A DNA stretch of 64,000 bases, taken from positions 4,402,001-4,466,000 of the forward strand of contig NC_010175.1 in the NCBI RefSeq assembly GCF_000018865.1, given 5' to 3'. The number at the start of each line of letters is the position of its first letter. Within the stretch, counting starts at the first letter, position 1. The position numbers and the translations under genes were made by a program. The DNA comes from Chloroflexus aurantiacus J-10-fl. GTDB lineage: Bacteria > Chloroflexota > Chloroflexia > Chloroflexales > Chloroflexaceae. The notes beneath the pieces were generated by a model. The model made no database searches, was not told the DNA's origin, and saw only the letters and a program-made list of their open reading frames with translations. This document shows positions 6,441 through 44,732 of this stretch, one piece after another.

Positions 6441-6466
6441 GTAGGGGTGCACAGCTGCGCCCCTAC
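6441..6466. repeat. GTAGGGG-type palindromic repeat, copy 1 (imperfect)
   Basis: GTAGGGG and CCCCTAC flank a short mismatched stem. It belongs to the same dispersed palindrome family as the copies at 6708, 23150, 31277, 31471 and 63624. Confidence 0.6.
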
Positions 6467-6623
6467 TGTGTCTATGCCAGGCTGTCGGCATCGCTCATAG
6501 CAAATCTTGAGTGATACGGTGCATTACCGGACATCACCAGATATGCGATGTTCTGTGATGATCCGTCCCATTCGCGACGATCCGTGGTATCACCTGCAGG
6601 ATTACGGATGGTGGGCAGAGACG

Positions 6624-6733
6624 GGTTCTGGAGGGGCGGGTTCTGGAGGGGCGGGTTCTGGAGGGGCGGGTTCTGGAGGGGCGGGTTCTGGAGGGGCGGG
6701 TTCTGGAGGGGCGGGTTATGAACCCGCCCCTAC
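6624..6733. repeat. Six 15-bp tandem repeats fused to a palindromic repeat
   Basis: Six exact copies of GGTTCTGGAGGGGCG run from 6624 to 6713. The last runs into GGGGCGGGTT-ATG-AACCCGCCCC (6708-6730), a perfect palindrome of the GTAGGGG family. The tandem unit looks like a multiplied left arm of that palindrome. The rest of 6128-6816 holds no convincing gene. Confidence 0.85.
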
Positions 6734-6816
6734 TACGAGGGATGCGGCGAACGAGGGGTGGCGAAAGGGTGCGTCTTGGATTGCGCGCCATGCGTTGGCC
6801 TGTACCAGATTTGGCA

Positions 6817-29318: not shown

Positions 29319-30206
29319 ATGACGCAACGAATTGTCAATATCGGTCTGGTGCAGATGCGCTGTACCGCCGATCCTGACTTCAATATGGCGACGGCGGAAG
29401 CCGGGATTCGGGCTGCGGCGGCGCAGGGGGCGCAGATTGTGTGTCTGCCGGAGCTGTTTCGTTCGCTCTATTTCTGTCAGAGCGAGAATCATGTTTTCTT
29501 CGCTCTGGCCGAGCCGGTGCCCGGCCCCAGTACCGAGCGGCTCAGTAAATTGGCTGCTGAGTTGCAGGTGGTGATTGTGGCCAGTCTGTTCGAGAAACGG
29601 GCGGAAGGTCTCTACCACAATACGGCGGCGGTGATCGATGCTGATGGCCGGTATCTGGGGAAGTACCGTAAGATGCACATTCCCGATGATCCGCTCTTCT
29701 ACGAGAAGTTTTATTTCACGCCGGGTGATCTGGGGTTCAAGGTGTTCAAAACACGCTACGCCCGGATCGGGGTGCTAATCTGCTGGGATCAGTGGTACCC
29801 CGAAGCGGCCCGGCTCACGGCGCTGCGCGGAGCCGATGTGCTCTGTTATCCGACGGCAATTGGCTGGCATCCCGCCGAGAAGGCTGAGTACGGTGTAGCG
29901 CAACATCAGAGCTGGGAGATTATCCAGCGCTCACACGGGATTGCCAACGGTTGTTACGTCGTGAGCATCAATCGTACCGGTCACGAAGGTGATCCTGCCG
30001 GTGGGATCGAGTTCTGGGGGCAGAGCTTTATCTCCGATCCTTCGGGAACGGTGATCGTGCGGGCGCCGGTTGATGAGCCGGCGGTGCTGGTCGCCCCCAT
30101 CGATCTGGCAAAGATTGATGTGCAGCGTACTCACTGGCCATTTCTGCGCGACCGCCGGATTGATGCCTACGGTGAGATTACGCGCCGTTATCTTGATGAG
30201 GAGTAA
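29319..30206 (+). CDS. aguB: N-carbamoylputrescine amidase
   Basis: 295 residues of the nitrilase superfamily. The catalytic triad is visible: Glu45 in CLPELF, Lys118 in KYRKMHIPD and Cys155 in ICWDQWYPEA. The stretch HIPDDPLFYEKFYFTPGD is characteristic of the N-carbamoylputrescine branch. It releases putrescine, CO2 and ammonia. ATG 29319 follows GGAGAAG; ATG 29301 upstream would place that site inside the gene. It lies five bases before aguA, the enzyme that makes its substrate. Confidence 0.93.
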   Translation: MTQRIVNIGLVQMRCTADPDFNMATAEAGIRAAAAQGAQIVCLPELFRSLYFCQSENHVFFALAEPVPGPSTERLSKLAAELQVVIVASLFEKRAEGLYHNTAAVIDADGRYLGKYRKMHIPDDPLFYEKFYFTPGDLGFKVFKTRYARIGVLICWDQWYPEAARLTALRGADVLCYPTAIGWHPAEKAEYGVAQHQSWEIIQRSHGIANGCYVVSINRTGHEGDPAGGIEFWGQSFISDPSGTVIVRAPVDEPAVLVAPIDLAKIDVQRTHWPFLRDRRIDAYGEITRRYLDEE

Positions 30207-30211
30207 GCGTT

Positions 30212-31267
30212 ATGGCAACCCCTGCCGAACTGGGTTACCGGATGCCCGCCGAATGGGAACCGCATCAGGCTACGTGGCTTTCGTGGCCGCATAAAGAGGA
30301 GAGCTGGCCGGGTATTATTGACCGTATCTGGCCGGTGTACGCCCGTTTTGTCGCCGAACTGGCGCGTGGCGAGACGGTGCATATCAATGTGAACGATGCT
30401 GCCATGGCCGATCAGGCGCGCTTCTTCCTGGCCGAAGCAGGAGCTGTCGGCGATATTCGCTTGCACGAATTTCCAACCAACGATGCCTGGTGCCGCGATC
30501 ACGGTGCTATTTTCGTGGTGCGTGATACGCCTGCCGGGCGCGAGCTGGCCGCCACCGATTGGGAGTTTAATGCCTGGGGCGGGAAGTATCCTCCTTACGA
30601 TCTCGACAACCAGATTCCGGCGCGGATGGCCGCGTATCTGGGAGTGCCACGGTTCTGTGGCGGGATGGTGCTGGAGGGTGGTTCGATTGATGTGGATGGG
30701 AACGGCTTATTGCTGACCTCCGAGCAGTGCCTGCTCAACCCCAACCGTAATCCGCACCTGGATCGGGCGGCTATCGAGCAGCGTCTGCGCGAGATGCTCG
30801 GTGTTCACACCATTCTCTGGCTGGGTGAAGGGATTGTCGGTGATGATACCGATGGTCATATTGATGATCTGGCCCGCTTTGTTGCGCCTGGAGTGGTGGT
30901 GACCGTTGTCGAGGACGATCCACTTGACGAGAATTATCACGTGCTCCAGGACAATCTCCGCCGGCTGCAACTGATGCGGGATGCTGCCGGCAGGCCGCTC
31001 ACGGTGCTGACCATTCCGATGCCGCCGCCGGTGGTGTTTCAGGGTCAGCGCTTACCAGCCTCGTATGCCAATTTTTACATCGCCAACCACGCGGTGATCG
31101 TACCTACGTTCAATCATCCCAACGATCAGCGGGCATGTGCCGTCTTACAGCAGTGTTTTCCTGATCGGCGCGTGGTGGGGATCGAAGCGACCGATGTTAT
31201 CTGGGGCCTGGGATCGTGGCATTGTCTCAGTCAGCAGGTGCCGGCGGGATTGATCAATGTTGGATGA
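30212..31267 (+). CDS. aguA: Agmatine deiminase
   Basis: 351 residues, normal for the peptidyl-arginine-deiminase-like family. Signature segments are RMPAEWEPHQATWLSWPH, NDAWCRDHGAIF, EGGSIDVDGNG, DDTDGHIDDLARF and the catalytic Cys338 in GLGSWHCLSQQ. It converts agmatine to N-carbamoylputrescine. With aguB it forms the two-step route to putrescine. The last 37 codons are duplicated in tandem downstream, but the gene itself is intact. Confidence 0.95.
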   Translation: MATPAELGYRMPAEWEPHQATWLSWPHKEESWPGIIDRIWPVYARFVAELARGETVHINVNDAAMADQARFFLAEAGAVGDIRLHEFPTNDAWCRDHGAIFVVRDTPAGRELAATDWEFNAWGGKYPPYDLDNQIPARMAAYLGVPRFCGGMVLEGGSIDVDGNGLLLTSEQCLLNPNRNPHLDRAAIEQRLREMLGVHTILWLGEGIVGDDTDGHIDDLARFVAPGVVVTVVEDDPLDENYHVLQDNLRRLQLMRDAAGRPLTVLTIPMPPPVVFQGQRLPASYANFYIANHAVIVPTFNHPNDQRACAVLQQCFPDRRVVGIEATDVIWGLGSWHCLSQQVPAGLINVG

Positions 31268-31276
31268 TAAGCATCA

Positions 31277-31304
31277 GTAGGGGCGACGCATGCGTCGCCC
31301 CTAC
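31277..31304. repeat. GTAGGGGCG palindromic repeat (28 bp, perfect)
   Basis: Arms GTAGGGGCGACGCA and complement with no loop. It lies 9 bp after the aguA stop. A copy with one mismatch is at 31471-31498 in the duplicated unit, overlapping the lipoprotein stop codon. Either could terminate transcription in both directions. Confidence 0.8.
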
Positions 31305-31350
31305 CGACCCTGCTCTAAAATCTCGCGGATGCGGTTGTGCGGTTCGATGT

Positions 31351-31461
31351 TTTCCTGATCGGCGCGTGGTAGGGATCGAAGCGACCGATGTCATCTGGGG
31401 CCTGGGATCGTGGCATTGTCTCAGCCAGCAGGTGCCGGCGGGATTGATCAATGTTGGATGA
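31351..31461 (+). pseudogene. Duplicated 3' fragment of aguA
   Basis: The sequence repeats the last 37 codons of aguA (FPDRRVVGIEATDVIWGLGSWHC and onward) without the rest of the gene. It is a by-product of the 194-bp tandem duplication and not expressed as an enzyme. Confidence 0.85.
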
Positions 31462-31494
31462 TAAGCATCAGTAGGGGCGACGCATGTGTCGCCC

Positions 31495-31920
31495 CTACCG
31501 GCCCTGCTCTAAAACCTCGCGGATGCGGTTGTGCGGTTCGATGTGCAAGACACCGGCTGAACGGGCCACCGGCACCAGTTCAGCCGGTTCGAGGACACAC
31601 AGGAACGGATTATCGCCTCCCAGCGCACGATGATCGGCAGCACTGAGACAGAACAGATCGAATGTCCCCATGATGTAGCGCGGCAATTCAAAAATGTCAT
31701 CGCTACCGGGTGCCAGCTCAATCCAGCGATCCATCGTTGGAATGCTGACGACCATTGCCTCATCAGCGATATTCCGCACTTTCAGCACCGGTTCATGTTC
31801 CGGCGGCAGGGTCAGGCTCACCGGTGAGCAGCCTTGACCGGTAACCGTGAGGTCAACCGTCGGTGTTGGGGCTGCGCAGGCACTGCATAGCAACACGAAA
31901 AGGATCAGCCATCTGCTCAT
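31495..31920 (-). CDS. Small exported lipoprotein, function unknown
   Basis: 141 residues. The N-terminus MSRWLILFVLLCSACAAPTPTVDLTVTG is a lipoprotein signal peptide with the lipobox LCSAC. The mature part looks like a small beta domain and keeps three further cysteines (GCSPV, LFCLS, FLCVL). A cupredoxin-like fold is conceivable, but no complete copper site is recognised. ATG 31920 is preferred; GTG 31926 is possible. It follows the DUF1501 gene closely (16 bp) and is probably co-transcribed. Its 3' end was copied in the tandem duplication. Confidence 0.7.
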   Translation of the reverse strand: MSRWLILFVLLCSACAAPTPTVDLTVTGQGCSPVSLTLPPEHEPVLKVRNIADEAMVVSIPTMDRWIELAPGSDDIFELPRYIMGTFDLFCLSAADHRALGGDNPFLCVLEPAELVPVARSAGVLHIEPHNRIREVLEQGR

Positions 31921-31936
31921 AGTCACAATTGACCGG

Positions 31937-33304
31937 CTAGCGACACTGGTGAATCACCGGTACGAAGACCTGATACCCGGTGTCGGTCGGCGTAGCGTTG
32001 GCCGACAGATCGGGTGGCAGATCGGGGCCGCGCACAATTCCCAGTGGATTATATGCCGACAGGCCGGGGAAGATGGTACCGAGCTTCGGGTTACCGAGCC
32101 GACGCACCAGAATCTCGCTCAGCACCTGACGATAATCGGTCGTGATTTGCAGGTCTTGCCGTTTATCGAGCTGATCGGGATGCAATCCCGGCCAGGTACC
32201 GTAGATGCGACGGCCATTCACGTTACCGCCCAATACCATCATCACATTGCCGTGACCGTGATCGGTACCATTCGACTGATTGCGTCCCAGGCGACGGCCA
32301 AACTCGCTGAGCACGACAATGGTTAACCGGCTGTGATAGGCAGCGAGGTCGTTGTAGAAGGCATGGAGACCCTGTGAAAGAATGCCTAACCGGTCGGGGA
32401 GATAGCCGGTTCCGTCACTGTTGGCCTGCGCTTCGTGCGTATCCCAGCCACCGAAGTCAATCGTTGCGACTTGCAGCCCAAGATCAGCTTTGATCAATTG
32501 CGCCACCGTCTTCAAGGCATCGCCAAACGATCCCGAAGGATATGTGGTACCAGTGGCCGGGGTATAGCTGCCCAGGCTCCGCATCACATCAATCACCTGC
32601 GTAACCCGGCGGCCAGCCGGTGCCAGTGGGTTAATCGAACTCCGGTTGTAGATTTCGCGGAGCGTGCTGAGAAAGGGGTAGTTCTCTTGGGAGCGGTTGT
32701 AGCGCCAGCCGGTGCTGATATTGAAGCTACTGGGTGAGGTGACGGCAACCGCGCCTGCATAGTTCAACAGCGAAGCAGGTGGTGCGCTATTGGCAGCGAT
32801 TGCCGGCAACAGCGTGCTGACCCCACCCTGGCTTTGTAAATGACGGGTGAGCCAGCCGCTGCTGGTTGTTTTGTTCCCCGGCGTCCCGCGTTCGATATAG
32901 TCCATGGCGTCAAAATGGCTGCGCGTATCATCATCGAGGCCACAGGCGTGGATGAACGCAAGGTGACCACTGTTGTACAGATCGCGCAGATGGGGCATTC
33001 TGCTGTTTAGCCCAAAGCTGGACGTATTGAATGACGGGTTGTTCTGATCAATACGCAACGGCGCATTCGCTCCGCTCAAAGGTAATGCCAGCGTTCCGCG
33101 GGCGTTCCGATAATGCGGATCATCGTATGGACTGAGCAGACTCAGCCCATCGCAGCCACCGCGCAGAAAAATCTGCACGAAAATCTCATTCGTTGCCTGG
33201 GGTTGGGCCGGCTCGGCGAAGGCCAGTTGGCCGACGCGAGCCGCAGCCATCGCTGCAATTGCAGCGCTACATCCCATCAGAAATTCGCGACGAGTCCATT
33301 GCAT
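31937..33304 (-). CDS. DUF1501 family Tat-exported protein
   Basis: 455 residues. WTRREFLMGCSAAIAAMAAARVG is a twin-arginine signal. The body is a DUF1501 sulfatase/phosphatase-like domain (QIFLRGGCDGLSLLSPYDDPHY, HACGLDDDTRSHFDAMDYIERG, TIVVLSEFGRRLGRNQSNGTDHGHGNVMMVLGG). The last segment has the metal-binding-like Asp-His-Gly-His pattern of alkaline-phosphatase-superfamily proteins. It acts outside the cytoplasm. It follows the DUF1800 gene by 29 bp; the two families are regular operon partners in many phyla, but their joint role is not established. Confidence 0.92.
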   Translation of the reverse strand: MQWTRREFLMGCSAAIAAMAAARVGQLAFAEPAQPQATNEIFVQIFLRGGCDGLSLLSPYDDPHYRNARGTLALPLSGANAPLRIDQNNPSFNTSSFGLNSRMPHLRDLYNSGHLAFIHACGLDDDTRSHFDAMDYIERGTPGNKTTSSGWLTRHLQSQGGVSTLLPAIAANSAPPASLLNYAGAVAVTSPSSFNISTGWRYNRSQENYPFLSTLREIYNRSSINPLAPAGRRVTQVIDVMRSLGSYTPATGTTYPSGSFGDALKTVAQLIKADLGLQVATIDFGGWDTHEAQANSDGTGYLPDRLGILSQGLHAFYNDLAAYHSRLTIVVLSEFGRRLGRNQSNGTDHGHGNVMMVLGGNVNGRRIYGTWPGLHPDQLDKRQDLQITTDYRQVLSEILVRRLGNPKLGTIFPGLSAYNPLGIVRGPDLPPDLSANATPTDTGYQVFVPVIHQCR

Positions 33305-33333
33305 TGGTGTATTCTCCTCTGGTGTGGCGCTGA

Positions 33334-35133
33334 TTATCGCAGCCAGAATTCAGGACTGGTAGCCAGTAACTGTACCATGGCAACTATCCGGTCATTAACG
33401 GCGTCCGCTGATCCCCAATCTGGAGCACCGCGCAGCGGCTGAGGTGGCTGGTTCGGATCGCCACCTTGTGCCAGAAAGTTAATGAGCAGGGTACGGAGAT
33501 CTCCGGTGGGAATGTAGGTCAGCATGCGCTGGAGCCAAAAGTCAACGATCCCTGCACATGAGAGGCCAGGCGGCGTTTGACCAACAATATCAATTGTTAC
33601 ATTACCACCCCAGGATTGAGCCATGGTGTAAAAGATGTTCCATGTTCTAAGCAAGGCGTTCGTATTCGCCCAGTAATCGGCTCGGTCAGGATGGCCGGTA
33701 GGCGTGTCCCAGCCGAAGAGGCGATGACCGGTCTGATCCGCGCTCCAGAACAAACTTGACCAATAACCACCCTGCGTTGCATCGCCGTTCACGGCTGGAA
33801 CGTCGTTGGGCAAGGCAGCGTTGGTGGCGCGCAAAAATGCCCACATTGCCTCAAGGGGGCGACATATCTTGGCACCAAAGGCACTTTTTGCCTCTGGGGA
33901 AAGCAGAATAGCTTCAACGACGCGCCGAATCTGATCGGGCGAATCACGATGCTGCATCCAGACGCTCCACGCCGTGTTGATGAGTGACTCCGGTGGATTG
34001 TCGGCTACCAGCCGTCGGCACAGTTTAGTGCAGAGATGGCGGGCTGTACCCGGGTGACGGGCTGCGAGGCGTAGAGCTTCCATACCGTCACGTTCTGCAC
34101 CGTTGTTGAAGGGAAAGTTGGGGGCAGGTTCGATGCCGGGCAGGGGGGCTGGTGCCAGCACAGTCTTGGGATAGTTATCGTGCCAGGACTCCATGAGGTA
34201 GAAAGCACCGGTATTAGGTCGCCCATCACGGCCATTGGCAATTGTCCAGCCGGTCAGGCAGCGTGAGGCATCGTAGACATCGTAGTCAATATAAGCAGAT
34301 GCATAGCGCTCGCTGCCGTACTCTACAACCGGAATATTGCCGCGTTGACTGTAGAACTTAAGGTAGTTGTCGCTTCCCAGTGTATGCAACTCGAAGAGTT
34401 CACGGGCAAAATTCTCGTTGCCGCCTTCGCCGCCGCCGGCTTTATTACTCACGTTGTTGAGGTAGTACATCATGGCAACGCTTTTGGTGACCTCAACCAG
34501 CATGGTGTAAAAATTACCCAGGGCATGCGTGCGAATAATGCGGTCGTAGTCGGGCCAGGTTGCAGCGATCCGCTGATCGGCAGTAGCCCGCACATTGAAA
34601 TGGTTGTGCCAGAAATCAACCATCACCTCGAAGAGCTGACGGCGACTGTACACAGCCCGCAGCCACGTCGCCACTCGTACCTCTTCGTAAGGCCGGATGC
34701 GCTCCGCCCAGGGCAGATCAGGCACTACCCGCTGTTGCCAGAGGGTTTCTCGCGAGGCTGATAACCAGCTTAGTGGCCGAACTTCATTGATGGTACTGCT
34801 GTTGTGGGTGTAGCGAATCTTGAGCTGGGCGGACAGAATGCGATTAGCGCAAGGGGTGTTGTCAATTGCAGTGTAGTTCAGTTGCTGCCGAACCCAATTG
34901 TTGAACCGTTCTTCATCACTCGCGCCAGGAGTGGCATCGTACATCGCCATCAATTCAGGGCTGGGGCCGAAAGCCAGCCGACGCATCGCAATCGTGCGTA
35001 GCGAAGCCGGCTGAGTGTACGAACAGGCGGCAACCGGTGCAGGTGAGGTGCCTACGGCTGCCAGTCCGGCAGCGGCTAGCCCGGCAATCAGGGCAACACC
35101 GCCTTCGAGCACGTCACGTCGAGTTAGTTCCAT
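33334..35133 (-). CDS. DUF1800 family Tat-exported protein
   Basis: 599 residues. ELTRRDVLEGGVALIAGLAAAGLA is a twin-arginine signal peptide. The mature protein matches DUF1800: AMRRLAFGPSPELM, ERIRPYEEVRVATWLRAVYSRRQLFEVMVDFWHNHFNV, NFARELFELHTLG and RHLCTKLCRRLVADNPP. It is the first gene of a three-gene exported unit with DUF1501 and the lipoprotein. Function is unknown. Confidence 0.92.
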   Translation of the reverse strand: MELTRRDVLEGGVALIAGLAAAGLAAVGTSPAPVAACSYTQPASLRTIAMRRLAFGPSPELMAMYDATPGASDEERFNNWVRQQLNYTAIDNTPCANRILSAQLKIRYTHNSSTINEVRPLSWLSASRETLWQQRVVPDLPWAERIRPYEEVRVATWLRAVYSRRQLFEVMVDFWHNHFNVRATADQRIAATWPDYDRIIRTHALGNFYTMLVEVTKSVAMMYYLNNVSNKAGGGEGGNENFARELFELHTLGSDNYLKFYSQRGNIPVVEYGSERYASAYIDYDVYDASRCLTGWTIANGRDGRPNTGAFYLMESWHDNYPKTVLAPAPLPGIEPAPNFPFNNGAERDGMEALRLAARHPGTARHLCTKLCRRLVADNPPESLINTAWSVWMQHRDSPDQIRRVVEAILLSPEAKSAFGAKICRPLEAMWAFLRATNAALPNDVPAVNGDATQGGYWSSLFWSADQTGHRLFGWDTPTGHPDRADYWANTNALLRTWNIFYTMAQSWGGNVTIDIVGQTPPGLSCAGIVDFWLQRMLTYIPTGDLRTLLINFLAQGGDPNQPPQPLRGAPDWGSADAVNDRIVAMVQLLATSPEFWLR

Positions 35134-35293
35134 ATGCTTTTGATCTGATATGTTGTTGCTTCCGATCTACCTGAGAAAATTGTAATCTTTACCAAAAAAC
35201 TACTACCATCACCAGAAGGTACTATCTTTAGCCGGCAACAGGTACGTTGTTTCAGTAGGACGCTGGCCCGGATAGAGAGATGTTGCTGGAGGT

Positions 35294-35930
35294 GCGGTGC
35301 GCGCCGGAGGCGCGCGCTCCCAGTGCTTTGCCCAGGGGCGGCGGGAGGTACGCGCCGGATGTGTGCGCGCCCAGGGTACCGTGGTGCAGGATCAGACCGA
35401 CGGTATGACCTGTGTCCCTTTTGCCACATCAGCGGTGCGCGCCGGAGGCGCGCGCTCCCAGTGCTTTGCCCAGGGGCGGCGGGAGGTACGCGCCGGATGT
35501 GTGCGCGCCCAGGGTACCGTGGTGCAGGATCAGACCGACGGTATGACCTGTGTCCCTTTTGCCACATCAGCGGTGCGCGCCAGAGGCGCGCGCTCCCAGT
35601 GCTTTGCCCAGGGGCGGCGGGAGGTGCGCGCCGGATGTGCGCACTCCCAGGGTAGCGTGGGACAGGTTCAGCCCGACGGTATGACCTGTGTCCCTTTTGC
35701 CACATCAGCGGTGCGCGCCAGAGGCGCGCGCTCCCAGTGCTTTGCCCAGGGGCGGCGGGAGGTGTGCGCCGGATATGTGCGTTCCCTGGGTACCGTGGTG
35801 CAGGATCAGACCGACGGTATGACCTGTGTCCCTTTTGCCACATTAGCGGTGCGCGCCAGAGGCGCGCGCTCCCAGTGCTTTGCCCAGGGGCGGCGGGAGG
35901 TGCGCGCCGGATGTGTGCGCTCCCAGGGAA
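35294..35930. repeat. Five 138-bp tandem repeats
   Basis: Unit starts are at 35294, 35432, 35570, 35708 and 35846, a strict 138-bp period; the fifth is cut short at about 35930. Each begins with GCGCGCC-GGA/AGA-GGCGCGC, a palindrome, and contains GACCTGTGTCCCTTTTGCCA. Because 138 is a multiple of three, long frames stay open on both strands; both are low-complexity, Arg/Gly-rich and lack a recognisable domain. The rest of 35134-36031 holds no gene. Confidence 0.93.
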
Positions 35931-35996
35931 GACGGCATTGCGGGTGTAGAGATCACAACGCCATCACGCGATTCTGAACGCCGGGCCGTGACAATC

Positions 35997-36005
35997 TGGT
36001 ATACT
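35997..36005 (+). promoter_or_regulatory. Extended -10 promoter of the reductase-like gene
   Basis: TGGTATACT lies about 27 bp ahead of the ATG at 36032, directly after the repeat array. Confidence 0.55.
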
Positions 36006-36031
36006 GACGCCAATAGCGCGAGGAGGCGGTT

Positions 36032-38086
36032 ATGAAGCGAGTTGTCAGTATCAGTCTTGGCTCGTCACTCCGTGATTATCAGATCACGGTGAAGGTTTTG
36101 GGGCAGCATGTCGAGGTGCGTCGCATCGGTACGAACGGCGATGTTGCGCAAGCCATGGCGCTGGTACGCGAGTTTGATGGCAAGGTGGACGCTATCGGAC
36201 TCGGTGGTTTAACACCGGTTTTTCGCATCGGTCGGGCACGCTATCCCCATCAGGAAGCCATCCATATCGCAGCTCAGGCCCAGCGAACACCGGTCGTTGA
36301 TGGGGGTGTGGTCAAGGCGACGCTTGAGCGCTGGGCGATTGCGCAGGCAGTGCGCCAGCTTCCTTCATTGTTGCGTTACAAGCGGGTGCTGATTACCAGC
36401 GGCGTTGAACGTTATCAATTGGCTGCTGCTATCAGTCAGTACGAACCGGAGTTGCGCTTCGCCGATCCGATCATTCACGCCGGGATTCCTTTCCTGCCAC
36501 CACCACGCTCGCTCGAACAGCTTGAACTCTACGCGGCAACCGCGTTACCGATCCTCGCCCTTCTCCCCTATCGCTTTATCCATCCGGTGGCGCTCGGCCA
36601 GGAAGGTTTTGACAGCCGTGCAGTTGAACTATTCCGCTGGGCGGATGTGATTGCCGGCGATTTTGCCTTCATTCGGCGCTTTGCCCCCAATGATCTGACG
36701 CGCAAGACGATTATCACCGATGACCCCTCACCTGCCGAGATCGAAGATCTGCGGCGACGCGGCGTAACGACGCTGGTGACGATGACGCCACCTCTCAGTA
36801 ATGAGCGGCCCTTCCTCGCCGCCGATGCGCTGGAGGCGGTGATTACGGCGATTACCGAGAGCACGCGCCAACCGGGAGACGCTGAGGTGATCGACTTTAT
36901 TACGGCAGCCGGTTGGGGGCCGACGGTGCAAGACCTGAACCCGCGCCCCAAGCCGCGCTTCGCATTTGTCATTCACCCGCTGCGTACCGAACTGATCGCC
37001 AATCACAAATGGTTCCGCTGGACACGCTATATGCCACAGCGCCTGGTGGAGCTGGTGGCGGCTCATTTCCCGCCCCTTTACCTCTCGCGCATCCGTGGCA
37101 TTCGCTCGAAGGCCACCGGTGAAGAGGTTGAGGGGATTCTGTTGACGCTGGGAACGACACCGCGCGAGATGATGCGCCGTCCGCCCGGTTTTACCTACCG
37201 CCGCCTGATCAAAGCCGCCCGAATGGCCGAACGGATGGGAGCGCAGATTATGGGGTTGGGAGCCTTCACGTCGGTTGTCGGTGATGCCGGTATTACGGTG
37301 GCGCAGAAGGTGGATATTGGCATTACATCGGGCAACTCGCTGACGGTAGCCGCGACGCTGGAAGCGGCCAAGCAGGCGGTAGTGCTGATGAAGGGAGGAC
37401 GCCCTGAGCGGGTACGGGCAGTCGTGATTGGCGCCACGGGTTCGATTGGCGCAGTCTGTGCCCGCTTGCTGGCCCAGGCCGTCCACGATGTAGTCCTGGT
37501 GGCACCACGCGCCGAACGTCTGATCGCGCTCAAGAAGCAGATCGAGGCCGAGACGCCGGGCGCACGGGTGGTGGCCGCGACCTACGCCGATGCCTACATT
37601 GGTGATGCCGATCTGATCATCACAACCACCAGCGCCCTGACCGGTAAAGTGATCAACATCGACAAACTCAAACCTGGTGCAGTGGTCTGTGATGTGGCCC
37701 GTCCGCCAGACGTGAAGGAGGAAGACGCCCGGCGGCGCCCTGATGTGCTGGTGATTGAAAGTGGTGAGATTGTATTGCCGGGCGAACCGGATTTTGGCTT
37801 CGATATAGATATGCCGCCTGGTACAGCCTACGCCTGTTTGTCAGAGACGGCGCTGCTGGCGATGGAAGGTAAATTTGAAGACTACACGCTAGGCCGTAAT
37901 ATCGAGATCGAACGGGTTAAGGAGGTCTATCGGCTGTGGAAGAAGCATGGCCTTGAACTAGCCCGCCTGCGCTCGTTTGGGGTCTACGTTACCGATGAGA
38001 TGATCGCCGAAAAGCGCCGCCTGGCCGAAGAGCGTCGTCGCCAGTTGGGCTTGCCTGCCGAGAAGGTGCTGGATCAATCATCGTGA
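36032..38086 (+). CDS. Two-domain protein: uncharacterised N domain fused to an acyl-ACP-reductase-like domain
   Basis: 684 residues behind GAGGAGGCGG. Residues about 1-300 (starting KRVVSISLGSSLRDYQITVKVLG) form a domain that also occurs in other bacteria but that I cannot assign. Residues about 330-660 align end to end with cyanobacterial long-chain acyl-ACP reductase (AAR): RRLIKAARMAERMGAQIMGLGAFTSVV (compare ALGGFSS), TSGNSLTVA (compare TGNTHTA), a nucleotide-binding GATGSIG at 467-473, and YACLSETALLAMEG with Cys602 where AAR has its acyl-thioester cysteine (Cys294). Motif spacing is similar. AAR makes fatty aldehydes with NADPH. Activity on acyl-ACP or acyl-CoA is an inference; a different dehydrogenase role remains possible. 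The alpha/beta hydrolase gene overlaps its stop codon. Confidence 0.75.
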   Translation: MKRVVSISLGSSLRDYQITVKVLGQHVEVRRIGTNGDVAQAMALVREFDGKVDAIGLGGLTPVFRIGRARYPHQEAIHIAAQAQRTPVVDGGVVKATLERWAIAQAVRQLPSLLRYKRVLITSGVERYQLAAAISQYEPELRFADPIIHAGIPFLPPPRSLEQLELYAATALPILALLPYRFIHPVALGQEGFDSRAVELFRWADVIAGDFAFIRRFAPNDLTRKTIITDDPSPAEIEDLRRRGVTTLVTMTPPLSNERPFLAADALEAVITAITESTRQPGDAEVIDFITAAGWGPTVQDLNPRPKPRFAFVIHPLRTELIANHKWFRWTRYMPQRLVELVAAHFPPLYLSRIRGIRSKATGEEVEGILLTLGTTPREMMRRPPGFTYRRLIKAARMAERMGAQIMGLGAFTSVVGDAGITVAQKVDIGITSGNSLTVAATLEAAKQAVVLMKGGRPERVRAVVIGATGSIGAVCARLLAQAVHDVVLVAPRAERLIALKKQIEAETPGARVVAATYADAYIGDADLIITTTSALTGKVINIDKLKPGAVVCDVARPPDVKEEDARRRPDVLVIESGEIVLPGEPDFGFDIDMPPGTAYACLSETALLAMEGKFEDYTLGRNIEIERVKEVYRLWKKHGLELARLRSFGVYVTDEMIAEKRRLAEERRRQLGLPAEKVLDQSS

Positions 38087-38886
38087 GCACTGTACAACTT
38101 GAATGGATTACGACACAGCCATCATCGCCACGACCAGCACCACCTGTCGTGCTGGTCCACGGTGCCTGGCATGGGGCCTGGTGCTGGACCGAACAAGCCA
38201 TCCCTGATCTGGTAGCACGTGGCCTGACGGTACACGCGATCAGTCTTCGTGGGCATGGCCGTAGTGCGCCTGCCGGCCCGTTGACGACGATCTGTGATTA
38301 TGTGCGCGATGTGCAAACGGTGGTGCGCAAACTCCCTCAACCACCGCTTGTTGTCGGCCATAGCTCTGGTGGATATGTTGTGCAATTGCTAATGAGTGGG
38401 CGTTGTGGAACAGCGCCGCCGTTGGCCGGGGCTGTGCTGCTATGCAGCTCGCCGGTGTCGAGTCCCACCTACTTTTTGCGCCGTCTGCGTGAGCGAGCAC
38501 CAATGGTTGACATTCGCGCCTTGCTACGCCGGGAAGCAGAGGCGGTACGGGCTGCGCTGTTTCGAGCGGATATTGCGCCAGCCGATCTCGAACGTTACCG
38601 CCGGCAATTGGTGCGCGAACCGCCACTTGTAACCTTAACCAGCATGGTTATTCGCCCCCGCCCGCTGCGAGTGCAGGTACCGGTGTTGGTGATTGCTGCC
38701 GGGTGTGATGCCATCTTCGATGTGCCTGCTCAGCAGGAGCTGGCGGCGGCGTATCGCGCCGAACTCATCGTGATCCCTGAAGCTGCGCATGACCTGATGC
38801 TTGACCCGGCCTGGCCGCTGGCAGGTGCCGCGATTGCGCATTTTGCCGCTACCCTTCACCGATCCGTACCCTCAACTGCAAGGTAA
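38083..38886 (+). CDS. Alpha/beta-fold hydrolase
   Basis: 267 residues starting at a GTG that overlaps the upstream stop codon (GTGA), so translation is coupled to the reductase-like gene. VVLVHGAWHGAWCW is the oxyanion region, GHSSGG the nucleophile elbow, GCDAIFDVPAQQEL holds the acid and EAAHDLMLDP the catalytic His. It resembles esterases and lactonases with the HGAWHG motif. The strict coupling suggests it acts on the same pathway, for example hydrolysis of an acyl thioester or ester. Confidence 0.88.
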   Translation: MSTVQLEWITTQPSSPRPAPPVVLVHGAWHGAWCWTEQAIPDLVARGLTVHAISLRGHGRSAPAGPLTTICDYVRDVQTVVRKLPQPPLVVGHSSGGYVVQLLMSGRCGTAPPLAGAVLLCSSPVSSPTYFLRRLRERAPMVDIRALLRREAEAVRAALFRADIAPADLERYRRQLVREPPLVTLTSMVIRPRPLRVQVPVLVIAAGCDAIFDVPAQQELAAAYRAELIVIPEAAHDLMLDPAWPLAGAAIAHFAATLHRSVPSTAR

Positions 38887-38921
38887 AAGACGATACCCAA
38901 TCAGGCATCGGGAGATATTGT

Positions 38922-39914
38922 ATGAACGTAGCCACCGAACCGGCCATTGTTGTCCATCAATTGAGCAAAATCTACGAGGTTCCTGAGCGTGATCCGGGTT
39001 TACTGGCCGCAGTGCGTAGCCTGTTTCGGCGACGGGTGCGTGCCATCCCGGCGGTGTCCGCTGTCAGTTTCACCATTCAACCGGGTGAAGTGGTTGGATT
39101 TCTCGGTCCGAATGGGGCCGGGAAAACTACCACCCTCAAGATGCTGACCGGCCTGCTCCATCCAACCGCCGGTGATGTGCGTGTCTTCGGCTACATTCCG
39201 TCTCGCCGCGAACCGGCTTTCTTGCGCCGGATTACGCTGGTGATGGGTAATCGCAATCAGTTACAGTGGGACCTTCCGGCACTCGATTCGTTTGAGCTAC
39301 TGCGGGCAATCTATCGCTTACCACCGGCAGCATTTCGGGCGACTCGTGATGAATTGATTGAGTTGCTCGAAGTTGGCCATCTGGTGCGCAAACCGGTGCG
39401 TAATCTTTCGCTCGGTGAGCGTATGAAGATGGAGATTATCGGCGCGCTGCTGCACCGTCCACAGGCATTGTTTCTCGATGAACCGACCCTCGGCCTCGAC
39501 GTAACAATGCAGCGGCGGATTCGGGCGTTTGTGGCCGAATACAATCGGCGTACCGGAGCAACAGTATTGCTCACCAGTCACTATATGGCGGATGTCGAGG
39601 CTCTCTGTCGGCGGGTAATTGTGATCCATCACGGGCAAGTCCTCTTCGACGGGCCACTGCACAATCTGGTCGATCAGTTTGCTGCCTATCGCAAACTGAT
39701 TGTGACCCTCAGCGAAAGTGGGAGCGATCTATCCCGCTTCGGTGAGGTGATCGATCAGGATGGCCTGCGGTACACCTTGCGCATCCCGAAAGCGACAGCT
39801 CCGGCGGTGACGGCCCGGATTCTGGCTGAAGTACCCGTTGCTGATGTGACGGTTGAGGAACCGCCGATTGATGATGTTATTGAGCAGGTGTTTGCGGTAG
39901 GTGCGAGTCATTAA
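38922..39914 (+). CDS. ABC-2 type exporter ATP-binding protein
   Basis: 330 residues. Walker A is GFLGPNGAGKTTTLKML, the signature is LSLGERMKMEIIGALLH, Walker B is ALFLDEPTLGLD and the switch His lies in LLTSHYMADVE. The domain order and the C-terminal extension (about residues 240-330) match ATPases of the ABC-2 exporters that pair with two DUF990-type permeases. The next two genes encode such permeases. Confidence 0.92.
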   Translation: MNVATEPAIVVHQLSKIYEVPERDPGLLAAVRSLFRRRVRAIPAVSAVSFTIQPGEVVGFLGPNGAGKTTTLKMLTGLLHPTAGDVRVFGYIPSRREPAFLRRITLVMGNRNQLQWDLPALDSFELLRAIYRLPPAAFRATRDELIELLEVGHLVRKPVRNLSLGERMKMEIIGALLHRPQALFLDEPTLGLDVTMQRRIRAFVAEYNRRTGATVLLTSHYMADVEALCRRVIVIHHGQVLFDGPLHNLVDQFAAYRKLIVTLSESGSDLSRFGEVIDQDGLRYTLRIPKATAPAVTARILAEVPVADVTVEEPPIDDVIEQVFAVGASH

Positions 39915-39932
39915 GACCGGCAAAGGCGACAT

Positions 39933-40736
39933 ATGTCTGGAATTATTGATTTTTATCGGGCCGCGATGAAACAGGCAATCCTGGTGCAATTTCAGTATCG
40001 GGCGGCCAACTATTTCTACATAATCGGCATGATCAGCGAGCCGATCATCTATCTGGTGGTCTGGAGTGTGGTTGCGGCTGCGCAGGGTGGGACGGTCGGC
40101 GGGTACGATGCCGGTGCTTTCGCCGCCTACTATATCGTCTGGACGCTGGTACGCAATATGAATATCGTCTTTACGCCATACGGTTGGGAGCAGCGGATTC
40201 GCACCGGTGAGTTGTCGGCAGTGCTCTTGCGTCCACTGCATCCATTGCACTACGACATCGCCTTTTTTGCCGGCTGGAAGGTGGTCGTCATTCTGTTCTG
40301 GTTGCCGATTGCCGCAGTGCTGGCGTGGCTCTTCCGGCCAACCCTTGCCCCAACCTGGCTTGAGATCGCAGTATTTGCCGTCGCCATCTGGGGTGCATTT
40401 CTCATCCGTATGATGTTTCTCTGGTTGCTGGGCCTGATTTCCTTCTGGACGACCCGCGTGGCGGCGATCTACGAACTCTTCTTTGCCTTTGAATTGTTTC
40501 TTTCCGGGCGCATCGCACCGCTGGCGCTCTTCCCTGAGTGGGCGCGCACACTGGCCGATTGGCTGCCATTTCGCTGGACGTTTGGTTTTCCCATCGAGGC
40601 TCTGATTGGGCAATTAAGTGTCGCCGGCTTGATCGGTGGCCTGGCGATGCAGGCATTCTGGATACTCCTCGGTTTGGGACTGGTGCTACTGGTCTGGCGT
40701 CGTGCTGTGCAACGCTACACGGCGGTTGGTGGTTAA
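39933..40736 (+). CDS. ABC-2 type exporter permease (DUF990-like), first subunit
   Basis: 267 residues, about six membrane helices. YRAAMKQAILVQFQYRAANYFYIIGMISEPIIYLVVWSVVA and MNIVFTPYGWEQRIRTGELSAVLLRPLHPLHYDIAFF are characteristic: the R-x-G-x-L-x-x-x-L-L-R-P-x-x-P motif marks this permease family. It lies 18 bp after the ATPase gene. Substrate is unknown. Confidence 0.9.
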   Translation: MSGIIDFYRAAMKQAILVQFQYRAANYFYIIGMISEPIIYLVVWSVVAAAQGGTVGGYDAGAFAAYYIVWTLVRNMNIVFTPYGWEQRIRTGELSAVLLRPLHPLHYDIAFFAGWKVVVILFWLPIAAVLAWLFRPTLAPTWLEIAVFAVAIWGAFLIRMMFLWLLGLISFWTTRVAAIYELFFAFELFLSGRIAPLALFPEWARTLADWLPFRWTFGFPIEALIGQLSVAGLIGGLAMQAFWILLGLGLVLLVWRRAVQRYTAVGG

Positions 40737-40773
40737 GCAAGGTGTTGTATAGCAGAGAGATGAAGGGCGTGGT

Positions 40774-41559
40774 ATGGAGCTGGTGCGCTTAATTGCCATC
40801 TTTGCCCGGGTTGGCATCCTCAACGAGATGCAATACCGGGTTAATTTCTTCTTCCAGATGCTGGAGTCGGCGATTAGTCTGGCGACCGGACTGATCGGTC
40901 TGGGGCTGGTCTTTCAACACACCACCATTCTGGCCGGTTGGCAACCGGCGGAATTGCTGGTCGTGATGGGGATTTACGTGCTGATGAGTGGCATCGTGCA
41001 GGCGGTGATTCAGCCGAATATGTTGCGGCTGGCGCAGGATGTGCTTGAGGGCAAGCTCGATTATGCCCTCACGAAACCGGTCGATAGCCAGTTGCTGGTG
41101 AGTATTCGGGAATGGCAGGCGTGGCGCTTTACCAATGTCGTATTGGGCTTGCTGGTCGTCGGATGGGCGCTCGTCTCTTTGCAGGCAAGTGTCAGTTTAG
41201 GGCAGATCGTGCTCTTTGTCCTTATGCTGGGCTGTGGGGTAGTGGCGCTCTATGCTTTCTGGCTGATTCTGGCCACGACCAGTTTTTGGGTCATTCAGAT
41301 CGAAAGTTTGATCAATTTGTTTGAAGGTATTTTTGCCGCCGGACGCTGGCCGACCAGTATCTACCCTGGCTGGTTGCGCGCAATCCTGACCTTTCTGGTG
41401 CCGGTTGCGTTTGCAGTCACCGTTCCGGCAGAAGCGCTTACCGCTCGTTTGAACAGTTCAACGCTGGCGTTAGCGGTTGGCGTGAGTTTCACCCTCTTCT
41501 TGCTGGCGCGTCTGCTATGGCGATGGGGTGTCCGTCGCTATAGTGGTGCCAGTGCCTGA
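40774..41559 (+). CDS. ABC-2 type exporter permease (DUF990-like), second subunit
   Basis: 261 residues with about six membrane helices. AIFARVGILNEMQYRVNFFFQMLESAIS and RLAQDVLEGKLDYALTKPVDSQLLVSIREW correspond to the same conserved regions as its partner, with the G-x-L-D-x-x-L-x-K-P version of the motif. The two permeases probably form a heterodimer with the ATPase two copies. Confidence 0.9.
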   Translation: MELVRLIAIFARVGILNEMQYRVNFFFQMLESAISLATGLIGLGLVFQHTTILAGWQPAELLVVMGIYVLMSGIVQAVIQPNMLRLAQDVLEGKLDYALTKPVDSQLLVSIREWQAWRFTNVVLGLLVVGWALVSLQASVSLGQIVLFVLMLGCGVVALYAFWLILATTSFWVIQIESLINLFEGIFAAGRWPTSIYPGWLRAILTFLVPVAFAVTVPAEALTARLNSSTLALAVGVSFTLFLLARLLWRWGVRRYSGASA

Positions 41560-41567
41560 AGCCATCA

Positions 41568-41623
41568 CCAGTGTGATACGGTTGCCGGCAATAATGCCCG
41601 TGTGGACAACGGTATCACGCTGG
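41568..41623. terminator. Long hairpin between convergent genes
   Basis: CCAGTGTGATACGGTTG (41568-41584) pairs with CAACGGTATCACGCTGG (41607-41623) in 15 of 17 positions. It lies in the 75-bp gap between the ABC permease and the thioesterase, so it can serve both strands. Confidence 0.65.
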
Positions 41624-41634
41624 TTTGTAATGGT

Positions 41635-42127
41635 CTACCTGTTGTGCTGATCGCGCAGGTCGGCAAGCATACGTTCAGGTACCTGCACGGCAACCACTTC
41701 ACCCTGCACCGTCGTTTCGCCATCAACCTCGATCCAGGCTTCGATCACCACCTTGCGTCCCGCCATCTCTTTCACGCGCCCGTGAATGATCAGCTCAGGG
41801 CCGAGCGGGGTGGGTCGCAGAAAATTCACCCGTAACGATGCGGTTACGAAGCGCAGATATGGCGCGGTTCCCGGTTCACGTCCGGCGGCAGCGTAGGCCG
41901 CGGCGGCTGCGGTGCCGGTGCCGTGGCAGTCGATCAGCGAGGCGAGCAGCCCGCCGTAGACATAACCGGGTATTGCCGTATGGTATGAACGGGGCGTGAA
42001 ACGGGCGATGGCTTCGTTGCCGTTCCATACACTCTTGATATGTGATATGCAACCCATCGGGGTTGAGACGACCACAACCGTAGCAGTGGCTCAATTCATC
42101 GGGGTAGGTGTCTTGAATAGCTTGCAT
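41635..42127 (-). pseudogene. PaaI-type hotdog thioesterase, frameshifted by a 7-bp tandem duplication
   Basis: The gene starts at ATG 42127: MQAIQDTYPDELSHCYGCGRLNPDGLHI, the usual N-terminus with CYGCG. Then the frame is lost. It resumes as HIKSVWNGNEAIARFTPRSYHTAIPGYVYGGLLASLIDCHGTGTA, the hotdog core with its catalytic Asp region. At the break the sequence TGATATG occurs twice in a row (42036-42049). Removing one copy restores a continuous 161-residue protein. Family members hydrolyse acyl-CoA thioesters. A shorter in-frame product from 42075 would lack the N-terminus. It is the last gene of the glpX cluster. Confidence 0.85.
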
Positions 42128-42152
42128 GACCTGTCCTGTACAACATCGTAGA

Positions 42153-42752
42153 TTACGGTCGGCGGAGATAGATCCAGGCTGAGGGGCCGCGTTGCCCCAT
42201 GACGACAGTTTCACCGGGGACAAACTGCTCGATAATAAACCGCTCCTGGAGCGCTGTCATGAGCAGGTTTTGATCGACTCTGGTTTTCAGCATCTGTGCA
42301 TCAGGCTTTGTCGCGTCGCTGAGATGAACGAAGAACACGAACAGGCCGCCGGGCTTGAGGAGGCGGCGCACTTCATCGAGATAAGCGTACAATTCCGGTT
42401 CGCTAAAGCCATGGCCGCAGCCGACATCAATCGCCAGATCGTAGGGTTCGTTCAGAAATGCCAGATTGGTGGCATCAGCCACGAAGAGACGTACCCGGTC
42501 ACCAACACCGGCAGCCGCTACGCGCTCTTGCGCCATGGCGATGGCTTCAGGGACAAAATCGACCCCATCAACCTGCCAGCCTGCGCGAGCCAGCCAGACA
42601 CAAGCGCGCCCGGTGCCACAGCCGAGGTCTATAGCCCGGCTTGGTGGTAACTCCTGACTGAGCGCAATGATCTCAGGCGGTGGATCGGGGTGATCCCACG
42701 GAATCTCACCGGTCAGATAACGCTCACGCATGCGCTGAAAACGGTCAGACAT
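42153..42752 (-). CDS. Class I SAM-dependent methyltransferase
   Basis: 199 residues. Motif I is AIDLGCGTGRACVWLARAGWQVDGVDF, motif II VRLFVADATNL, and motif IV region YDLAIDVGCGHGFSEPEL. The N-terminal RYLTGEIPWDHPDPPPEI is typical of the TehB-like/thiopurine-type group. The substrate is unknown. It sits between smpB and the thioesterase, 15 bp downstream of smpB. Confidence 0.88.
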   Translation of the reverse strand: MSDRFQRMRERYLTGEIPWDHPDPPPEIIALSQELPPSRAIDLGCGTGRACVWLARAGWQVDGVDFVPEAIAMAQERVAAAGVGDRVRLFVADATNLAFLNEPYDLAIDVGCGHGFSEPELYAYLDEVRRLLKPGGLFVFFVHLSDATKPDAQMLKTRVDQNLLMTALQERFIIEQFVPGETVVMGQRGPSAWIYLRRP

Positions 42753-42767
42753 AGTACAAAACCTCTG

Positions 42768-43250
42768 TTACAGATCGTGTCTTGCCCGTTTCAAGGCCCG
42801 ATCAATATCACGGGCCGCATCGCGCCGGGCAATATCCTCGCGCTTATCGTAGATCTTCTTCCCACGTGCTACACCAAGCTCAACTTTAGCCCGGCGTCCT
42901 TTGAAATAGACCTTCAGCGGCACCAGGGTCATCCCCTTCATGCGCACCAGGCCATTGAGGCGGTTGATTTCACGTCGGTGCAGCAGCAGTTTGCGCGGAC
43001 GCATCGGATCGTGGTTGAAGTATTTGCCCGACTGCTCGTAAGGCGCAATGTGGGCATCATACAGGAACACTTCATCATCGATCACACGGGCAAAACTGCC
43101 GCGCAAGTTGACCCGTCCGGCGCGCACCGATTTAATTTCGCTGCCGGAGAGGACAATGCCCGCTTCAATCGTCTCTTCAATATCGTAATCGTGGCGCGCC
43201 TTACGGTTCTCGGCGACCACACCAGGGTGTTTGTGTTTTGTTGCTGTCAC
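42768..43250 (-). CDS. smpB: SsrA-binding protein
   Basis: 160 residues, the normal length. [41 protein letters not shown] is the SmpB OB-fold core, and the basic tail [27 protein letters not shown] is the part that enters the decoding centre. It delivers tmRNA to stalled ribosomes. Three bases separate its start from the O-antigen-ligase-like gene. No tmRNA gene was found in the window. Confidence 0.97.
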
Positions 43251-43253
43251 GTC

Positions 43254-44732
43254 TCACTCACTCAGAACAGAAACTGACGACGGTACCGGTTGGGGATCGT
43301 TGATCAGCCATTCAATCGCACTTCCCAGGCCAATCGTAGCCCAGAAGAGAGCCGCCATGTGGCTAAACTCAATATTGAAAAAGTAGTGGTCGGCCAGCCC
43401 GACGGCCAGTGCGGCGACGATGGCCCCCTGGCAGCCCAACAACCAGCTCGATGCTTCCTCATCGAGGGCCGGCAGAATGCGCAGACTACGGGTAAACCAG
43501 AGCGCGACCAGGCCAAGAAACACTGCCAGTCCAACCAGACCCATCCGTTGACCAATCGCCAGGTAGATGCTACTCACCCCGGCGGAGAGGTCAAGATCGG
43601 GAGCCTGACCGAAGCCAATGCCAAACACCGGATAACGCTGAATGATCGCAATCGCATTGGCGTATTCGTCGAGCCGCATCTGTTGTGCCTGATCGCGGAA
43701 CTGGACGCCGGAGAGTACCCGGTTGATAAACTCATCGGCATAACCCAGCCCAAAGAGCAGCACGGCACCGAGAATACTGACTGCCAGCATATGACGCCAG
43801 AGCTGTCGGTAGCGCACAGTGGCCAGAAAGGCGGCGGCAATGATCAGGCCGAAGAGGGCTGCCCGCGAAAACGTTAACAGGAGAGTCAGCACCTGCACGC
43901 CACCAAGCATTGCCAGCATCCAGCGCGGCAAGATGGGGCGCGGCGCTGCCAGTTGGGTGAGGGTGAGCACTGCTACCAGGGCCAGCATCCCACCAAAGCT
44001 GTTCGGATCGACGCCGAAACCGATGGCCCGCTCCAGCCCATTCGGATCATCTTCCACATACCGCAACACACGGCCACTGGTCGGATACCCGATCCGCCCT
44101 AGCGCAACCAGCAGTTGGAGGGCCATCGCGTCGGGCAACACCCACAGGATCAATCCGATCAGTGCCGAAATACCGCCCACAATGATGAGGGTACGGACGA
44201 TCAACCGGGCAGTAGCGCGGTCGCGCACACAATTGATCACGGTGAAGTAGCAGATCACACCAAGGACAAATTTTGCATAATTGTGAAGTGTTTGCGGGTC
44301 TGGTAAGCCACGAGCACCGAGCACCAGTGAAAAGAGCGTCAGGCCAAGAAAGCCAATCAGGGACAGGCCGAGCGAACCGAAGCGTACATCATAGGCATCG
44401 GAACGGGCCAGGCTACGTAAAAACCAGACCGCATTCAGGGCCACCAACACCAGGGTCAGAAAGTTGGGTGTAATGATCGCCTTAAACGGCAGCGTACCGA
44501 ACGGAATGATCGTCGCCACTGCCAGCGCTGCAATCAGCCCGGCCTGGACACTGACCAGCAGGGCTGTGGCAACAAAAAGTGCCAGCAGACCGGCGATGGC
44601 GTAGAGCGGTCCGAAGGCCGTGACACCACCAATAATACCGCCGGTGACCAGGGCCAGACCGGCGGTGAGCAGAGGCGATTGAACAATACGGTCGCGCAAC
44701 GATACGGGTTGCGCAGAAGGATTAACGAGCAT
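43254..44732 (-). CDS. O-antigen ligase/polymerase-like membrane protein
   Basis: 492 residues with roughly 11-12 membrane helices. The large loop and following segment (RLDEYANAIAIIQRYPVFGIGFGQAP) match the Wzy_C/O-antigen ligase family (typical P-x-x-G-x-G-x motif before the periplasmic loop). Such proteins transfer or polymerise glycans at the outer face of the membrane. Its start overlaps the glpX stop by 11 bp, so translation is probably coupled. Chloroflexus lacks classic LPS, so an exopolysaccharide role is more likely. Confidence 0.8.
   Translation of the reverse strand: MLVNPSAQPVSLRDRIVQSPLLTAGLALVTGGIIGGVTAFGPLYAIAGLLALFVATALLVSVQAGLIAALAVATIIPFGTLPFKAIITPNFLTLVLVALNAVWFLRSLARSDAYDVRFGSLGLSLIGFLGLTLFSLVLGARGLPDPQTLHNYAKFVLGVICYFTVINCVRDRATARLIVRTLIIVGGISALIGLILWVLPDAMALQLLVALGRIGYPTSGRVLRYVEDDPNGLERAIGFGVDPNSFGGMLALVAVLTLTQLAAPRPILPRWMLAMLGGVQVLTLLLTFSRAALFGLIIAAAFLATVRYRQLWRHMLAVSILGAVLLFGLGYADEFINRVLSGVQFRDQAQQMRLDEYANAIAIIQRYPVFGIGFGQAPDLDLSAGVSSIYLAIGQRMGLVGLAVFLGLVALWFTRSLRILPALDEEASSWLLGCQGAIVAALAVGLADHYFFNIEFSHMAALFWATIGLGSAIEWLINDPQPVPSSVSVLSE

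Follow-up and report, generated by a model that had tools for sequence, protein, structure and literature searches.

Chloroflexus aurantiacus J-10-fl encodes a 684-residue protein that joins a domain of the acyl-(acyl carrier protein) reductase (AAR) superfamily to a second domain that probably has the same fold. The gene (36032..38086, plus strand, ATG start) lies in the window that we analyzed, which is 64,000 nucleotides of contig NC_010175.1 (positions 4,402,001 to 4,466,000); all coordinates below are window positions unless a locus is named. The C-terminal (C) domain belongs to the AAR superfamily, as judged by sequence comparison. We think it reasonably probable that the fusion works as a fatty-acyl thioester reductase whose AAR-fold partner domain lacks the catalytic cysteine, and that it would supply long-chain aldehyde or alcohol. 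A sequence-only reading had already drawn attention to this gene; its observation is confirmed, and its interpretation is partly supported.

The C domain (residues 306-684; 36947..38083, plus strand) is a predicted acyl thioester reductase of the AAR/PigE type. Residues 347-646 or so align with nearly all of AAR, which agrees with the span of about 330-660 in the sequence-only reading. In a phmmer search of the PDB, the hits included PigE (4ppm, E = 1.1e-28, residues 359-663) and AAR (6jzq, E = 3.8e-13, residues 347-646). A profile built from 13 Chloroflexota relatives matched the same proteins at E = 6.3e-54 (PigE) and 6.7e-39 (AAR, with profile positions 37-336 on 34-338 of 6jzq), and it also matched the carmabin TAD at 9e-11. 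In NCBIfam, the top family was the PigE model NF053554 (E = 8.3e-56, residues 353-671), with 189.8 bits against a cut-off of 850, and the cyanobacterial AAR model TIGR04058 scored 65.0-66.1 bits against a cut-off of 449.7. Because both scores are far under the equivalog cut-offs, the C domain is a member of the superfamily and an equivalog of neither AAR nor PigE; by profile score it is nearer to PigE.

The sequence-only reading had singled out glutamyl-tRNA reductase and shikimate or quinate dehydrogenase as enzymes to which the C domain might prove closer. The comparison was made by sequence rather than by structure, and it does not place the C domain closer to them. The Rossmann domain PF01488 matches residues 459-564 at 25.5 bits, barely above its cut-off of 24.3, and the C-domain profile matches glutamyl-tRNA reductase (E = 3.4e-6) and shikimate dehydrogenase (E = 4.1e-6), but both matches are confined to the Rossmann stretch. 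The family-specific models gave 27.1 of the 429 bits required for glutamyl-tRNA reductase and 23.5 of 295 bits for shikimate dehydrogenase, from the Rossmann part alone, and the matches to AAR and PigE are far stronger and nearly full length. We therefore regard a relative of either dehydrogenase family as very improbable.

The cysteine and the dinucleotide loop of AAR both have counterparts in the C domain. As the sequence-only reading had noticed, there is a GATGSIG dinucleotide loop (residues 467-473; 37430..37450, plus strand), and Cys602 (37835..37837, plus strand), within TAYACLSET (residues 598-606), stands at the place of the acyl-thioester cysteine, Cys294 of AAR. Five residues (Cys602, Glu605, Gly467, Ala468, and Gly470) show no variation across the 33 distinct fused sequences or across the 25 distinct relatives that lack the N-terminal (N) domain; one of the latter, L146, is joined to an aminotransferase. 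All 33 fused sequences also have Thr469, as do 19 of those without N, and Gly473 was read in the window's sequence only. In AAR, the acyl chain is bound to Cys294, and the phosphate of NADPH is held by R189, R193, and R314 (PMC7089970). Two of these three arginines, R193 and R314, align with R496 and R622, which are arginine in 26 and 33 of the 33 fused sequences, respectively; relatives without the N domain often have lysine at both places.

The N domain (residues 1-305; 36032..36946, plus strand) had been described as a separate domain of unknown role. It is indeed a separate domain, but it is not an orphan: although it matches nothing significantly in Pfam, in NCBIfam, or among PDB sequences, it is a member of a widespread family of stand-alone proteins of about 300 amino acids. 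(A search of plasmids with the N domain found nothing at E = 1e-3.) The genome collection yielded at least 594 pattern stretches, of which 510 were confirmed as members, and we surveyed the best 80 of these; 79 of the 80 carry Chloroflexota-type names, and one is labelled Omnitrophota. The protein on the Omnitrophota-labelled contig (L093) is 57% identical to an Anaerolineae-type member, which suggests transfer or mis-binning. The label "Quinate 5-dehydrogenase", which databases may attach to this family, was confirmed by none of our searches.

We aligned 63 of the 66 usable stand-alone N genes (all except L092, L103, and L127), and an AlphaFold2 model of the N domain from 64 sequences reached a pLDDT of 91 and a pTM of 0.89. 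When 1000 PDB candidates from Foldseek were re-aligned to this model, four AAR entries led, with Z scores of 14.9-14.5 (the best was 6jzy, with VIA Z 14.9, a root-mean-square deviation of 4.3, and 247 aligned residues). Five carmabin TAD entries followed at 14.0-13.0, and the first unrelated folds, sugar-binding proteins, came at 10.4. The N domain thus probably has the AAR fold, as far as the model can be trusted. A comparison of the N-family and C-family profiles by hhalign found no similarity (probability 0.3%, E = 0.22), so only the predicted fold relates N to C.

The fused proteins are of two types, type I (as in the window) and a paralogue, type II, which are 50-55% identical to each other over both domains. 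The N domain lacks two motifs of a thioester reductase. The GxxGxxG loop is absent: where the dinucleotide loop would be, a place that we located from the order of secondary structures, the window's protein has GVERYQL (residues 124-130; 36401..36421, plus strand), most type I proteins have G-x-E-R-Y-Q, and stand-alone members mostly have G-x-D-R-x-G (as in GVDRWG). The catalytic cysteine is absent as well. If the invariant Glu268 is placed on the glutamate of C-x-x-E, three residues beyond the cysteine, then the counterpart of the cysteine would be Asp265 (36824..36826, plus strand), and this position is aspartate in 25 of 25 type I sequences, alanine in 8 of 8 type II sequences, and asparagine in 94 of 94 distinct stand-alone sequences.

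The C domain, with or without N, is present in 52 of 301 Chloroflexota genomes. (Of 73 genomes with matches, 19 were dropped because they had nothing beyond weak Rossmann matches and 2 because they had N alone; scoring was limited in most genomes to the first three candidates, and copies of N or C may be missed.) A scan of viral sequences found no relatives of the C domain. In a tree that included 13 of the 33 distinct fused sequences, the fused C domains and L028 formed one group (support 100/100), and AAR and PigE were placed elsewhere on very long branches. L028, which is the same gene as L148, comes from a genome of the Chloroflexaceae (G206, family f1) that has the C domain and no match to N anywhere. 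Two genes beside it resemble, by reading, two genes that lie about 5-8 kb from the window's fusion, in another relative order. Its position inside the fused group and its neighbours suggest that this gene lost its N domain, although its branch is long.

The tandem arrangement of two AAR-fold domains raises the possibility of a bifunctional enzyme: the aldehyde formed by the C domain would be reduced to the alcohol by the N domain, which shares the fold; fatty acyl reductases with two Rossmann domains offer a comparison. The conservation of the type I N domain fits this proposal: the stand-alone family has 75 columns with at least 95% conservation, the type I N domain has the same commonest residue at 54 of these, and R14, R31, D49, R127, D210, and E268 are present in 25 of 25 sequences. 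But the N domain has no GxxGxxG loop, type II keeps just 39 of the 75 columns and has histidine in place of R127 in 8 of 8 sequences, and N diverges faster than C (identity to the window's protein is 36% for N versus 64% for C in L149, and 54% versus 74% in L019). Also, the genome with L028 has C without N. On balance we consider a bifunctional reductase rather unlikely. We are just as doubtful of the wider form of this idea, in which the N family would be undescribed enzymes on the AAR scaffold that handle aldehydes or alcohols, and a two-step reductase in one chain would be the source of the stearyl group of bacteriochlorophyll c (BChl c) and of wax-ester alcohols in filamentous phototrophic Chloroflexota. 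If the fusion is a thioester reductase with a cysteine-less partner, as we favor, then N would most likely be a structural, docking, or acyl-binding partner, and the protein would be a covalent pseudo-heterodimer.

Evidence for a role in lipid metabolism comes from the paralogue. In all 3 searched genomes of a sister genus (g3), the stop codon of the type II gene overlaps, by ATGA, the start codon of a gene for a wax ester synthase (WS/DGAT). The wax synthase was identified by its score to TIGR02946 (389 bits, cut-off 310). Across the order, WS/DGAT is found in 9 of 41 genomes, and type II is found in all 9 and in one genome without a wax synthase, G214 (Fisher's exact test, P = 3e-8, ignoring kinship; this search left out four further type II genomes, G144, G184, G253, and G260). 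In the other six genomes with WS/DGAT, it is not adjacent to type II: the two genes are about 29-34 kb apart in G158 and G305 and on different contigs in the rest. Wax esters have been reported from Roseiflexus and Chloroflexus (PMC4400912), and the BChl c of Chloroflexus is esterified mainly with stearyl (PMC9066304, PMC3150298). Alcohols that are supplied from outside are reported to be incorporated into BChl c (PMC9066304). The homology to AAR, the coupling of the paralogue to a wax synthase, the reported wax esters, and the stearyl BChl c together argue for a lipid role. The sequence-only reading had proposed a fatty aldehyde- or alcohol-forming enzyme outside the cyanobacteria. The role is thus supported indirectly, via the linkage of the paralogue, but the location is not new, because AAR-type domains of non-cyanobacterial origin, PigE and TamH, were already published.

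In the reaction that we envision, acyl-ACP or acyl-CoA would hand its acyl chain to Cys602 of the C domain, and hydride from NAD(P)H would reduce the thioester to a long-chain aldehyde. The aldehyde would be reduced further to a long-chain alcohol for wax esters; in Chloroflexus, the alcohol would probably also become the stearyl tail of BChl c. (The analysis establishes the gene, its domains, the conserved residues, the fold prediction for N, and the gene linkages; the substrate class, the use of the cofactor, the alcohol step, and the roles of the N domain and of the adjoining hydrolase are what we infer.) Some of the genomes with the fusion are probably Roseiflexus and Herpetosiphon, which are not known to make BChl c, so a use in pigment synthesis would be special to some of the Chloroflexaceae. 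Other known routes to the aldehyde look weak in the window's genome: LuxC had no matches, and the best match to PF07993 reached just 5e-14.

The cyanobacterial style of alkane synthesis, in which AAR is paired with aldehyde-deformylating oxygenase (ADO), has only the homology to AAR in its favor. The ADO family PF11266 is absent from all 41 genomes of the order, including the window's, while the control genome of Synechococcus elongatus matches. We reject this pathway for the fusion, with hardly any doubt.

Several findings weigh against a fatty-acyl thioester reductase with an AAR-fold partner. At aligned places, Arg189 of AAR corresponds to Pro492 (followed by R493) and Tyr247 corresponds to Arg557, and an AlphaFold2 model of the C domain from the single sequence (no alignment was used) had a pLDDT of just 38. 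For the N domain, Foldseek's own ranking has AAR in third place (E = 2.6e-6, TMq 0.48), with the sugar-binding protein 6hb0 at the top (E = 1.2e-6), and the TM-scores are about 0.5 or less. The correlation between the wax synthase and type II spans few independent lineages; we found no WS/DGAT in the window's genome or in 4 congeners searched, and the window's type I fusion has no wax synthase beside it. The hydrolase that adjoins the window's fusion is not lipid-specific, and a related hydrolase was found directly beside the fusion in at least 7 of 14 type I loci with long flanks (L151-L153, L155, and L167-L169). Another reductase, such as one of the short-chain dehydrogenase/reductase type, might serve instead: the window's genome has 10 matches to PF07993 (best E = 5e-14) that exceed the family cut-off, although all 14 control genomes also match. 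Finally, the relatives of C that lack N are located among signalling genes, not lipid genes.

The better score of PigE invites another explanation, that the fusion releases a secondary metabolite or some other non-lipid thioester as an aldehyde, as a PigE- or TamH-like reductase. The best relatives on plasmids are mostly annotated as class III aminotransferase fusions, and in 3 of the 5 plasmid regions that we opened, an acyl carrier protein gene and other biosynthetic genes lie alongside. The window's protein, in contrast, has no aminotransferase domain in a Pfam scan of its 684 residues, and we found no carrier-protein gene or biosynthetic cluster beside the fusion when we inspected the open reading frames at 30000-45000 by reading. 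Nor does the paralogue adjoin such a cluster in g3; it adjoins the wax synthase. We consider this explanation unlikely, with less in its favor than a bifunctional enzyme. Separately, one Chloroflexota protein (L146, 5518-8067; 849 amino acids) has an aminotransferase at about 30-430 followed by an AAR-type domain at about 467-844, which is the order in TamH.

The neighbours of the C genes without N could instead indicate a module for lipid signalling or surface sensing, in which a fatty aldehyde is the signal or the protein itself is regulatory. Many of these genes lie in a conserved run with genes for DUF4388, a Ras-like GTPase, an alpha/beta hydrolase, V4R, a hexapeptide protein (LbH), C itself, a response regulator-GGDEF protein, and a multi-GAF protein. 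The run (L045-L050, L131-L145) is mainly from one Anaerolineae-type family (f13) and combines small-GTPase signalling with an acyl reductase. LbH is directly upstream of C in at least 17 of 25 loci, and across the 301 genomes the two occur together in 48, with C alone in 4, LbH alone in 4, and neither in 245, so that 48 of the 56 genomes with either one have both. (For LbH, 138 genomes matched and 52 were counted; 86 were dropped as weak, with a best E of 3e-9, mostly to the hexapeptide part. The 25 loci are not all independent, as L028 and L148 are both among them, and L030, a shorter stretch of L048's genome, was left out.) In the window's genome, the LbH and response regulator-GGDEF genes are still side by side (L174, 8085-9623 and 9650-10594), with no C between them and about 0.9 Mb from the fusion; in the LbH partner there, nothing in Pfam matched the part before residue 275 at E = 0.01. 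However, the window's fusion lies outside such a run, and in one genus type II adjoins a wax synthase. A signalling role for the fusion seems slightly less probable again than the release of a non-lipid thioester.

The stand-alone N genes have other neighbours. A MobA-like NTP transferase follows in at least 57 and a PAP2 phosphatase in at least 51 of 80 stand-alone loci examined (from L031-L044 and L051-L130), and the three genes form an apparent unit. These counts, like those for the neighbours of C and of the fusions, are lower bounds, because greedy gene calling kept longer overlapping open reading frames (12 of 80 loci from the genome collection, and L042-L043, dropped out in this way), and not all of the loci are independent (L031 and L051 are on one contig). 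One locus, L101, has two tandem N genes, at 6193-7086 and 7124-8017.

Among type II proteins, those of L026 and L150 end in a strongly hydrophobic stretch that is flanked by arginine or lysine and may be a membrane anchor. We had considered such an anchor as a hallmark of type II and dropped the idea, as the mean hydropathy over 19 residues exceeds 1.6 in just 2 of 8 distinct tails.

At the locus itself, a Shine-Dalgarno-like GAGGAGG (36020..36026, plus strand; read directly) precedes the fusion gene. The sequence-only reading was correct that a hydrolase gene overlaps the stop codon: the stop of the reductase and the GTG start of the hydrolase share 4 bp as GTGA (38083..38086, plus strand). 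The hydrolase (38083..38886, plus strand; 267 amino acids) belongs to Abhydrolase_6 (Pfam, E = 3.3e-30), with a nucleophile elbow, GHSSGG, from residue 92. A related hydrolase was beside none of the 8 type II loci. Just 5' of the fusion gene, at 35294-35928, a 138-bp unit is repeated in tandem 4.6 times (94% matches), and the open reading frames that cross this array on either strand are probably artefacts. No Rfam family reached its gathering score at 34000-42000, and a scan for promoters and terminators gave counts close to those in shuffled sequence.

The fusion is a concrete candidate for the aldehyde or alcohol step behind the wax esters of Chloroflexus and the stearyl tail of its BChl c. 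It also points to a cysteine-less AAR-fold domain as a fusion partner, whose family had no match among Pfam or NCBIfam models. Cyanobacterial AAR and ADO have been described as slow (PMC7089970); if the Chloroflexus protein is active, it would offer a version from a thermophile, joined to a helper domain, that is of practical interest.

How does the fusion compare to known systems? It resembles cyanobacterial AAR (TIGR04058; PDB 6JZQ, 6JZU, 6JZY, and 6JZZ) in the near-full-length homology of the C domain, in the counterparts of Cys294 and of the GATGxIG loop, in two of the three arginines that bind the phosphate of NADPH, and in the predicted fold of its N domain. It differs in that it is fused to a second, AAR-like fold, is remote in the tree, has Arg557 for Tyr247, and is found in an order in which none of 41 genomes has ADO. 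The type II fusion of sister genera, in turn, differs from that of the window in being coupled to a wax ester synthase in one genus, in having a more eroded N domain, and in its tail, which is hydrophobic in 2 of 8 proteins. As for the stand-alone N family of Anaerolineae, its 63 aligned members are 31-38% identical to the window's N domain; they are unfused, are mostly beside a MobA-like NTP transferase and PAP2, and have asparagine, not aspartate or alanine, at the inferred position of the cysteine.

The carmabin TAD (PDB 9E50 and others), which we compared by database titles, is AAR-like by profile and is the second-best fold group for the N domain; by its PDB name it is part of an adenylation-domain protein. 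In the incomplete open-access literature that we searched, neither the Chloroflexota fusion nor the N family turned up, and we saw no report that the family has an AAR fold. AAR-type domains that are fused to another domain and are not cyanobacterial have been described, in PigE (PMC8341465) and TamH (PMC9594044), and PigE is the best-scoring family for our C domain. Their partner is a class III aminotransferase, whereas the partner in Chloroflexus is a predicted AAR-like fold without the cysteine. Thus, AAR-like domains outside the cyanobacteria were already known, and the fusion to a cysteine-less, predicted AAR fold is a variant of this arrangement rather than a new kind.

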